Of a DNA stretch of 39,340 bases, positions 6,362-8,122 are shown in pieces (within the stretch, counting starts at the first letter, position 1; every line of letters starts with the position of its first letter). This DNA comes from Clostridia bacterium. GTDB taxonomy: Bacteria; Bacillota; Clostridia; Christensenellales; CAG-1252. The notes beneath the pieces were generated by a model, which was not told the origin of the DNA, searched no databases, and was given only the letters and a program-made list of their open reading frames with translations. A program made the position numbers and the translations under genes. Location: assembly GCA_024685775.1 (NCBI GenBank), contig JAIKVL010000003.1, forward strand, positions 1 through 39,340, written 5' to 3'.

Positions 6362-6610
6362 TCAAAACCAATATTCTTTCATCTTTGATAAAAAATCTTT
6401 TGTTATCGGGTACCCGGAACTCTCCCCAATGACAGAGTCAATACCGCAAAACGGGCAAAGAGCCGTCTCCTTTGTTCCTTGAATCCATTCGTTAATTTCA
6501 GCAGGAGCAAATATGGATAAACAGAAAAAGCATCCGCATTTGTTGTCGTGTAAAAGCATAGCTTTATTATTTGTGCAAAAGTGATGTGCTCTGATTATTC
6601 TTTGATCCAT
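6362..6610 (-). CDS. Small cysteine-rich protein, probable zinc-binding, function unknown
   Basis: An 82-residue soluble protein with CGCFFC (residues 25-30) and CPFC (52-55), two knuckles that probably bind one metal ion, followed by GIDSVIGESSGYPIT and an aromatic end (EYWF). This layout resembles a family of small uncharacterised cytoplasmic proteins found in many bacteria, recalled from general knowledge rather than searched. A GTG lies two codons upstream, but the ATG at 6610 has GAGG at proper spacing. The gene sits in an AT-richer stretch with two other small genes. No function is known to me. Confidence 0.75.
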   Translation of the reverse strand: MDQRIIRAHHFCTNNKAMLLHDNKCGCFFCLSIFAPAEINEWIQGTKETALCPFCGIDSVIGESSGYPITKDFLSKMKEYWF

Positions 6611-6673
6611 TTTCACCTCTCTGAATCCCGACTTATCAATTTCTTTATCATAATATTATGGGATAAAAAGTGC

Positions 6674-6790: not shown

Positions 6791-7165
6791 TTATTCTGTC
6801 AAAAAGTGTTGCTTGTATTCAGGTAATGCTTTGACAGCTTCTAATGTTTCTTCTATGCCGGAGAATAGTGACACGTGACTGCCACCGACCGGTTCCCACA
6901 TTGCCGGAAGTGCTCCGGGTTGGTTGCCTATATACATCCATTCTTCTTCGTCGAATTGGCGAAGTATCTCATAAACATATTTATAATAACCGTGTTTACT
7001 CTTCAAAATAACAAAACGTTTTATATGCTCCGGATTATAAATGACCTGTACGATTTCATCCGTCCAACCGTCAAGACCTTGCTTGAACATTATAGGCACA
7101 ATTTCTTCCCAAGAGCGCATCGGCGTGATATGCCTTGTGATTCGTTTTTTAAATAGATTTTTCAT
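6791..7165 (-). CDS. Hypothetical protein in the islet, function unknown
   Basis: A 124-residue soluble protein with no signal peptide or membrane segment. It begins with a basic stretch (KNLFKKRITRH) and then alternates aromatic and acidic residues (DGWTDEIVQVIYN, GYYKYVYEILRQFDEEEWMYIG), ending EYKQHFLTE. I do not recognise a family. Its ATG overlaps the stop codon of the upstream four-helix-bundle gene by 4 nt (ATGA), so the two are translationally coupled and may act together. Codons are noticeably richer in A and T than in the metabolic genes of the window, consistent with transfer. Confidence 0.7.
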   Translation of the reverse strand: MKNLFKKRITRHITPMRSWEEIVPIMFKQGLDGWTDEIVQVIYNPEHIKRFVILKSKHGYYKYVYEILRQFDEEEWMYIGNQPGALPAMWEPVGGSHVSLFSGIEETLEAVKALPEYKQHFLTE

Positions 7166-7515
7166 TTGTTGTTTTCCTTTGCTGTGTTAACAGAGGAAAC
7201 AAGCATCGCGCGGAGTGATTTACATTTTGATTCAAGGGAATTGTACCGCTCCTCGTTTATGTAATTTGTTTTGAAAAGCAATTCCAGCCAATACCCGGTT
7301 TCGTTCGCTTCTTTCAGCGCAATCTGCATTTTTGATATAAAATCCGCCGTCCCGTGCGCATATTTTGCCTCACGGATATTGGCACCAATGGACGTTCCAC
7401 TCCTACCGATCTGATTTGAGATAATGCTTTCCCTCTGTTCTTTCAAAATTTTTACCAGATTGATAATCAATACGGCAAATTCCATAGATTGCTCTGCAAG
7501 TTTATCGTTTTGCAT
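7162..7515 (-). CDS. Four-helix-bundle protein (23S rRNA intervening-sequence/S23 family)
   Basis: A 117-residue all-helical protein. The pattern (LIINLVKIL, a loop with NQIGRSGTSIGANIREAKYA, FISKMQIALKEANETGYWLELL, then RYNSLESKCKSLRAMLVSSV) matches the four helix bundle protein family first described from 23S rRNA intervening sequences and related in fold to Avd of diversity-generating retroelements. These proteins form basic rings and are thought to bind nucleic acid; the role here is unknown, and neither a reverse transcriptase nor an rRNA gene is in the window. ATG at 7515 follows AAGGTG. A promoter is at 7538-7566, whose -35 touches the hairpin array. The next gene overlaps by 4 nt. Confidence 0.88.
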   Translation of the reverse strand: MQNDKLAEQSMEFAVLIINLVKILKEQRESIISNQIGRSGTSIGANIREAKYAHGTADFISKMQIALKEANETGYWLELLFKTNYINEERYNSLESKCKSLRAMLVSSVNTAKENNK

Positions 7516-7537
7516 GCTTCCATCACCTTCCCAGTAT

Positions 7538-7566
7538 AGTATATCATAACATTGACGTCATGCCAA
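7538..7566 (-). promoter_or_regulatory. Promoter of the four-helix-bundle operon
   Basis: Minus-strand TTGGCA (7561-7566), 17-bp spacer, TATACT (7538-7543). The first base of the hairpin array (ATGAAGC at 7566) is also the last base of this -35 box. Confidence 0.6.
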
Positions 7567-7728
7567 TGAAGCGTTTTCTTCGAAAACATGAAGCGGCGGC
7601 GTTGCCGCCATAAAGCACTTTCTGCGCTCGCATGAAGCGAAGCGCACACGTTCCCCTTTGTGTGCCGAAGGCACGCTTCATAGGGCGAAGCCCTGCTTCA
7701 TTTTTCATGCATCGCAGATGCGCTTCAT
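7566..7728. repeat. Array of short hairpins separated by ATGAAGC, with inverted second half
   Basis: On the plus strand ATGAAGC occurs at 7566, 7588, 7610 (as ATAAAGC) and 7632, an exact 22-nt period. The 15 nt between copies form different hairpins: GTTTTC-TTC-GAAAAC (7573-7587) and GGCGGC-GTT-GCCGCC (7595-7609); the third spacer is degenerate. The right half carries the heptamer inverted (GCTTCAT at 7675, 7695, 7722), each preceded by a hairpin: GTGCC-GAA-GGCAC, AGGGC-GAA-GCCCT and GCATC-GCA-GATGC. A central GCACAC/GTGTGC stem (7644-7665) joins the halves. Stem sequences differ while the architecture is kept, which implies selection on structure. No family name is known to me. Confidence 0.8.
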
Positions 7729-7730
7729 TC

Positions 7731-7768
7731 AAAAAACCGTCTTTTGGAAAACAAAAGACGGTTTTTTT
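7731..7768. terminator. Bidirectional terminator of the tRNA operon
   Basis: A perfect 11-bp stem (7736-7746 with 7752-7762) and a 5-nt loop, with an A run before and a T run after it, so it can stop transcription on either strand. It directly follows the last tRNA of the minus-strand cluster and separates it from the hairpin array. Confidence 0.9.
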
Positions 7769-7770
7769 GT

Positions 7771-7845
7771 TGGCTGGGGTGGCAGGATTTGAACCTACGG
7801 ATGCGAGAGTCAAAGTCTCGTGCCTTACCGCTTGGCGACACCCCA
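7771..7845 (-). tRNA. tRNA-Gln (anticodon TTG)
   Basis: Seven-base-pair acceptor stem TGGGGTG/CACCCCA, anticodon stem CGAGA/TCTCG around loop CTTTGAC (anticodon TTG), T-loop GTTCAAATC, discriminator G and encoded CCA. Last of four tRNAs in the operon. Confidence 0.95.
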
Positions 7846-7859
7846 ACGGGTTATTAAAA

Positions 7860-7937
7860 TGGGGTGAGTAGAGAGATTCGAACTCTCGGCCTCCAGGGCC
7901 ACAACCTGGCGCTCTAACCAGCTGAGCTATACCCACC
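7860..7937 (-). tRNA. tRNA-His (anticodon GTG)
   Basis: Acceptor GTGGGTA/TACTCAC, anticodon stem CCAGG/CCTGG around TTGTGGC (anticodon GTG). The extra 5' G opposite C73, the histidine identity element, is encoded at 7937. CCA is encoded. Confidence 0.95.
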
Positions 7938-7950
7938 ATTTGCCGCGTGC

Positions 7951-8027
7951 TGGCGAGCCAGGAGGGATTCGAACCCCCGACCTACGGCTTAGAAGGCCGT
8001 TGCTCTATCCAACTGAGCTACTGGCCC
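7951..8027 (-). tRNA. tRNA-Arg (anticodon TCT)
   Basis: Acceptor GGGCCAG/CTGGCTC, anticodon stem ACGGC/GCCGT around CTTCTAA (anticodon TCT, reading AGA/AGG), T-loop GTTCGAATC, discriminator G and encoded CCA. Confidence 0.95.
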
Positions 8028-8048
8028 AAATCTACGCCGAGCACGGAA

Positions 8049-8122
8049 TGGAGCGAGTGATGGGAATCGAACCCACACGACCAGCTTGGAAGGCTGGGAT
8101 TCTACCGTTGAACTACACCCGC
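8049..8122 (-). tRNA. tRNA-Gly (anticodon TCC)
   Basis: Acceptor GCGGGTG/CACTCGC, anticodon stem CCAGC/GCTGG around CTTCCAA (anticodon TCC), T-loop GTTCGATTC, discriminator T and encoded CCA. First tRNA of the operon, next to the promoter. Confidence 0.95.

Follow-up and report, generated by a model that had tools for sequence, protein, structure and literature searches.

The window, meaning the whole stretch of 39,340 nucleotides analysed here, carries on its minus strand a succession of features formed, in this order, by a tRNA Gly-Arg-His-Gln cluster, a hairpin (hp0), a heptamer/hairpin array, a predicted promoter, the gene for a four-helix-bundle (4HB) protein and an overlapping ORF without family. 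The tRNA cluster covers positions 7771-8122 (Gln-His-Arg-Gly by increasing coordinate), and the putative element lies directly behind its tRNA-Gln, the candidate host insertion site. Between the 3' end of tRNA-Gln and the first linker of the array, hp0 (7731-7767) is a perfect 16-bp hairpin with a T-run, similar to an intrinsic terminator. The array itself occupies positions 7566-7728, its sense strand being the minus one, shared with the 4HB gene and the tRNAs. Directly after the last linker, the predicted promoter and leader of the 4HB gene (7516-7565, minus strand) consist of TATGATATACTATACT followed by GGAAGGTGATGG, promoter and ATG being likewise placed in relatives. The product of this gene, P0001 (117 aa, 7162-7515, minus strand), matches PF05635 (23S_rRNA_IVP; 98.9 bits for a cut-off of 33.8) and TIGR02436 (107.1 bits for a cut-off of 24), its closest solved relative being 2RLD (E 3.8e-33). 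Its stop codon overlaps the start of P0002 (ATGA), an ORF of 124 aa without family match (6791-7165, minus strand); almost all relatives have another ORF in this position, as though downstream cargo could be exchanged there. Two small minus-strand ORFs without family match, at 6791-7165 and 6362-6616, follow the 4HB gene.

Along the window, ATGAAGC at 7566, 7588 and 7632 and the one-mismatch copy ATAAAGC at 7610 keep an exact 22-nt spacing, and the inverted heptamer GCTTCAT appears at 7675, 7695 and 7722. The 15-nt spacers GTTTTC-TTC-GAAAAC and GGCGGC-GTT-GCCGCC form 6-bp hairpins with 3-nt loops, and the inverted half displays 5-bp hairpins at 7662-7674, 7682-7694 and 7709-7721. The 22-nt period, the heptamer positions, the inverted half and the hairpins described in the initial annotation of this DNA are all reproduced. 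Absent from it were the pairing of the array halves with each other into a ladder, the 16-bp hp0 ahead of the array and behind tRNA-Gln, and both the mobility of the array and its kinship with plain heptamer repeats.

A detector searching for a repeated 6-mer, then its repeated reverse complement, with flush hairpins in the spacers, returned the 7566-7728 array as its single match on the 39-kb window, and 0 matches on 1.32 Mb of dinucleotide-shuffled sequence. When folded as RNA, the 163-nt array strand reaches -69.6 kcal/mol versus -53.3 kcal/mol for shuffled sequences (z -4.2, beating all 200 shuffles), and folding as DNA gives a z of -4.3 against 200 shuffles. Shuffles, together with homologues, rule out chance or a cluster of terminators as the origin of the array. 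In an Rfam 15 search of the window tRNAs alone scored above the gathering score, the array corresponding to no known structured RNA.

Fold of the array and compensatory changes

When 17 ATGAAGC and 18 AGCTAAATT arrays were aligned, one consensus emerged for both classes, in which the linkers pair in a nested manner, the first with the outermost and onward toward the centre. The resulting rungs are of 7-8 bp, with one hairpin per side between rungs, giving a chain of four-way junctions. The window array's own fold reproduces this nested-rung pattern, its rungs being formed on the minus strand by 7722-7728/7566-7572, 7695-7701/7588-7594 and 7675-7681/7610-7616, with an extra heptamer (7632-7638) in the turn of the ladder. 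In the sense orientation, the side hairpins of the left half (7662-7721) are GCATC-TGC-GATGC (7709-7721), AGGGC-TTC-GCCCT (7682-7694) and GTGCC-TTC-GGCAC (7662-7674), and their stems covary in the alignments (helices 2 and 5). Those of the right half (7573-7631), with stems that also covary (helices 6-8), are a degenerate copy of a conserved tandem-G.A hairpin seen in relatives (7617-7631), GGCGGC-AAC-GCCGCC (7595-7609) and GTTTTC-GAA-GAAAAC (7573-7587). The sense strand can, in summary, fold into a ladder of stacked four-way junctions.

Under the fixed structure, pairing holds for 95% of cells in both linker classes, and 23 of 46 and 21 of 46 pairs, respectively, are changed on both sides. 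Compensatory cells amount to 116 and 97 in the two classes versus 35 and 34 in shuffles, none of 500 reaching the observed values, and to at most 23 when the structure is slid. Compensation is confined to the hairpins, and little within-class covariation is seen in the rungs because they are nearly invariant within a class. The stem sequence of the arrays is free and their geometry conserved. Selection on single-strand structure, as initially proposed, is supported by these two-sided stem changes, which keep pairing in two independent linker classes. The strands are moreover not equivalent: G.U pairs exceed A.C ones (38 vs 19, p 0.016), and a hairpin whose internal loop is a tandem sheared G.A is found on the sense strand of 16 of the 52 arrays and on the other strand of none (shuffled mean 1.9). 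This bias in G.U and G.A suggests that the strand functioning in single-stranded form is the sense one.

Relatives of the array and associated genes

Relatives of P0001 were found at no fewer than 80 loci, mainly in Clostridia of the gut and rumen, and in 52 of these 80 homologous loci the detector places an array directly ahead of the 4HB gene, on its upstream side. The linker word differs by clade (ATGAAGC, AGCTAAAT, TGAAAT, TGATAT and others): ATGAAGC is used by close relatives, and in distant ones the architecture is kept with the word switched to AGCTAAAT, TGAAAT or others. Within the window's genus, 4HB genes lie behind arrays with the linkers TGATAT, GTTATAT, CGATAT, TGAATTG and others. 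When mapped on the 4HB tree, the seven linker types require six changes, which is the minimum, the shuffled mean being 27 and none of 200 shuffles being as low. This tracking supports recognition without proving it, since array-gene linkage alone could produce it. A search for ATGAAGC-N-ATGAAGC in genomes of the whole order gave matches that were mostly chance or coding.

At the genome level, a 4HB gene is present in 27 of 29 genomes with AGCTAAATT arrays versus 15 of 51 genomes from the same families that lack arrays (Fisher 2e-8, with phylogeny only partly controlled). Among the former, no 4HB gene was found in G302 and G640, and G347, G605, G463 and G608 contain 4HB genes of other linker types alone, indicating that cognate pairing in trans is not universal. 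The upstream position in 52 of 80 loci, the genome co-occurrence and the linker-tree tracking make the proposed link between array and 4HB gene a strong one. Of the three refuting observations named in the initial annotation, none was made: arrays recur in relatives, their stems show compensatory changes, and they are associated with 4HB genes.

Some relatives show other arrangements. Upstream of the 4HB gene, loci L103, L105, L106, L111 and L112 carry plain TGAATAGTGAATAG / CTATTCACTATTCA arrays, in several of them within a GAAACGCC...GGCGTTTC frame, and such arrays stand midway from plain heptamer repeats to the ladders of hairpins. At L148 (G216:C2), a GTGAAGTT-linked array half of ~130 nt is present as a tandem duplicate with almost identical sequence. 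The 4HB family is related to Avd of diversity-generating retroelements; weak PF05635 matches located ~0.5-1 kb from RVT_1 genes (G451:C19, G355:C7, G395:C9 and G324:C24) are probably Avd, distinct from the array-linked 4HB proteins.

In plasmid records of Treponema, Bernardetia, Planktothrix, Nostoc, Aulosira and Euhalothece, the 4HB gene has plain tandem heptamers on either side, the upstream ones direct and the downstream ones inverted, as in Nostoc sp. C052 (AATTCGT x4 - 4HB - ACGAATT x5). Inverted heptamers scored at or above threshold flank 11 of 14 4HB genes tested (Cyanobacteriota, Spirochaetota and Bacteroidota, together with Monoglobus), these loci not being fully independent (two Planktothrix, several Nostoc), versus 0 of 63 control genes (p 5e-11). 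In a random-block control on three of the same plasmids, 0 of 4500 reached the heptamer threshold. The window form thus resembles a heptamer repeat to which hairpins have been added. Outside the Clostridia ladder form (L261, L266, L260, L264), 4HB genes are often found within defence loci, for example drmD - 4HB - MmeI in Planktothrix, hsdS - 4HB - hsdR in Monoglobus and helicase - 4HB - N6 methylase in Chlorohelix.

Sites, copies and ends of the element

The tRNA cluster is conserved across the window's genus, and the site behind tRNA-Gln is occupied in different ways. It contains no array in three sister genomes (L114, L116 and L126), a TGAAAT array together with a GNAT-like gene but without 4HB in L115 and L117, two TGATAT arrays in L119, and a CATATCA array in L118. 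As judged from this sequence comparison, the arrays are mobile, one and the same tRNA-Gln site being empty or differently filled in sister genomes. A search for AGCTAAATT pairs in 391 Clostridia genomes found them in 32 genomes from 24 of 223 genera, with at most 68 matches each (per-genome array counts being pattern-search matches), and the reversed-pattern control remained near zero. Only four of 22 AGCTAAATT loci with a detected array, some of them cut by contig ends, have an adjacent 4HB gene, and other arrays sit ahead of other cargo genes. Copies within a genome have unrelated flanks and lie behind tRNA tails or directly after a -10 box; more generally, sequence context places array sites behind tRNA or terminator 3' ends or right after a predicted -10 box. 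In L185, four arrays with three linkers stand in tandem behind one tRNA-Arg, the 4HB gene coming after the last one. Copy number appears low in the window's genus, because a 390-kb stretch of one contig of the sister genome G044 contains a single array. Element status, ladder structure and association with 4HB genes are established computationally.

A phage or plasmid origin was rejected, as the plasmid search gave no DNA match and the IMG/VR search no relative. Two 4HB matches occur in unannotated phage-labelled records, accompanied by the same ladders.

Regarding the ends, hp0 stands ahead of most arrays, and its arm often extends into the tRNA 3' (CCA) end or, in some loci, into coding sequence (L108, GGTTATCGCTTT-AAAGCGATAACC, and L086). 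Either insertion prefers the 3' foot of a hairpin, or the 3' arm is copied during insertion. Cargo-free copies share a common right end like TTGCATCTAAATCGTTC, situated ~10 nt behind the last linker. Direct target repeats are convincing in single cases (L220, L189, L213 and L224); an unrestricted test for target-site duplication was not significant (p 0.21), and a position-restricted one, chosen after inspection, gave p 4e-4 (n=11), so that duplication of the target is suggestive only. In the window, searches for the right-end motif and for a tRNA-tail duplication were both negative. Behind tRNA-Gln and its terminator, an inverted tRNA-like fragment (such as AACGGCAGGATTTGAACGAGAGCGTT) is observed in L115, L118, L114 and L126, and in L115 and L118 the tRNA 3' end recurs as a 21-nt direct duplicate ~165 nt further, right before hp0.

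Known systems, proposed reading and alternatives

Tandem heptamer repeats are known as the STRR of cyanobacteria and the TAACTGA repeats of Beggiatoaceae (PMC4679880), and as GGGAATC/GGGGAYT in Xanthomonas and Nostoc, where heptamer repeats occur as convergent inverted pairs able to form stem-loops (PMC4692102). Their mobility has been discussed, and a repeat-binding protein, proposed as a possible mobile element itself, has been called for (PMC4679880). Keyword searches of PMC4679880 and PMC4692102 gave no mention of four-helix-bundle proteins. Within a literature of limited coverage, with few subscription papers or preprints, no paper linking 4HB proteins to heptamer repeats was found, nor one with TIGR02436 together with four helix bundle. 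The family of putative mobile elements to which the array belongs is widespread and, it appears, still undescribed.

The array resembles these repeats in its 7-nt unit, its intergenic location, the frequent inverted pairs and the suspected mobility. It departs from the uninterrupted head-to-tail STRR and other tandem heptamers in having a 15-nt hairpin after each heptamer, with a period of 22, and from plain heptamer repeats in that both of its halves lie upstream of the gene. With the 23S rRNA intervening sequences bearing an S23/IVP ORF it shares the family (PF05635) and an ORF tied to an inverted-repeat structure beside a stable RNA; on the contrary, the arrays are placed behind tRNAs, coding-sequence ends or promoters, in the window never inside an rRNA gene, and are junction ladders that occur in multiple copies without the gene. 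The 4HB protein has in common with Avd a four-helix-bundle fold thought to bind nucleic acid, but unlike a diversity-generating retroelement the window element has no template repeat, variable repeat or reverse transcriptase, the latter being absent from the genome. The combination of a dedicated protein with structured extragenic repeats recalls REPIN-RAYT, although no Y1 transposase of the REPIN-RAYT/IS200-IS605 type is needed (none exists in the window's genome, G000), and the array is much larger, multi-junction and of low copy number in the window's genus. Finally, BOX/ERIC-type modular repeats and MITEs are likewise structured non-coding repeats, of ~170 nt and at many sites, but they differ from the array in its nested linker ladder and in a linker word that switches between clades with the partner protein.

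Considering the sequence evidence altogether, it is rather probable that the array represents the structured core of a small mobile element, with the adjacent 4HB gene as its dedicated nucleic-acid-binding partner. From this we infer binding, the molecule at work (RNA or ssDNA) and the mode of insertion, as follows: (i) a 4HB oligomer would recognise its cognate heptamer as exposed on the single strand in its folded state, be it RNA or ssDNA; (ii) it would guide the copying of the element to new places; (iii) the element would borrow host replication or repair enzymes, because its conserved unit encodes no recombinase or integrase and neither a resident reverse transcriptase nor a Y1 transposase is required; and (iv) downstream cargo genes would ride along. 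A template switch at the folded 3' end would explain hp0, its 3' arm being a copy of the host gene end.

Other explanations have to be weighed against this one. The ladder might be a cis-regulatory RNA, a leader or attenuator for the gene behind it (4HB autoregulation or other cargo), spread by ordinary horizontal transfer only. A promoter or start codon following the array at fixed distance and the G.U and G.A strand bias agree with such a role, as does the -10 box ahead of the array in AGCTAAATT loci, where the array would consequently be transcribed. It is nonetheless unlikely in view of the many copies per genome behind unrelated genes, tandem arrays without intervening genes, arrays that follow tRNA terminators and whose only promoter comes after them, and one site holding different arrays. 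Site-specific cassettes moved by a tyrosine recombinase using tRNA 3' ends, with the array as a folded, integron-like attachment site, would account for different cargo at one site, the 21-nt tRNA-Gln 3'-end duplicate of L115 and L118, and a long tRNA-tail repeat in L224. Many copies, however, lie at non-tRNA sites (promoters and coding-sequence ends), the conserved unit has no integrase and the window no tRNA-tail repeat, which renders this explanation improbable.

For the two remaining candidates, the enzymes concerned are missing from many genomes. The window's genome lacks RVT_1 reverse transcriptase, as do 22 of 29 array genomes with multi-copy ones among them, and this enzyme shows no association with arrays (7 of 29 vs 19 of 49). 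Y1_Tnp is likewise missing in the window's genome, and in 17 others of 42, including the multi-copy G506 and G638. A resident reverse transcriptase or Y1 transposase as required mover was rejected on these grounds. A non-autonomous retroelement, whose ladder RNA would be copied by a reverse transcriptase with the 4HB protein as Avd-like helper and inserted behind terminators like group IIC introns, is accordingly very improbable, despite the kinship of 4HB proteins with Avd, the weak matches beside RVT_1 genes in G451, G355, G395 and G324, the insertion behind terminators and an hp0 reminiscent of a self-primed copy. REP/REPIN-type palindromes moved by a Y1 transposase would also be structured extragenic repeats with a dedicated gene beside some copies, but their architecture differs and Y1-free array genomes exist, unless Y1 was lost after insertion, making this origin scarcely credible.

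Returning to the mobile element with a 4HB partner, a wider proposal can be put forward tentatively, and it may well turn out wrong: S23/IVP/TIGR02436 4HB proteins would be the cognate partners of heptamer repeats in bacteria generally, both together constituting pan-bacterial mobile elements without a transposase of their own that spread by structure-templated copying, and the four-way-junction ladder of Clostridia would be an elaborated version of them. To our knowledge, this four-helix-bundle family, common and structurally solved, has no known function. Its pairing with arrays may account for the as yet unexplained 7-letter repeats found in many bacteria, and the link between 4HB proteins and heptamers makes the function of the former and the origin and binding protein of the latter directly testable, with one small protein versus one short word. 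A stacked ladder of four-way junctions with free arm sequences is in itself uncommon among nucleic-acid architectures. If the mobile element can do without a resident reverse transcriptase and without a Y1 transposase, it would represent a novel mode of DNA movement.
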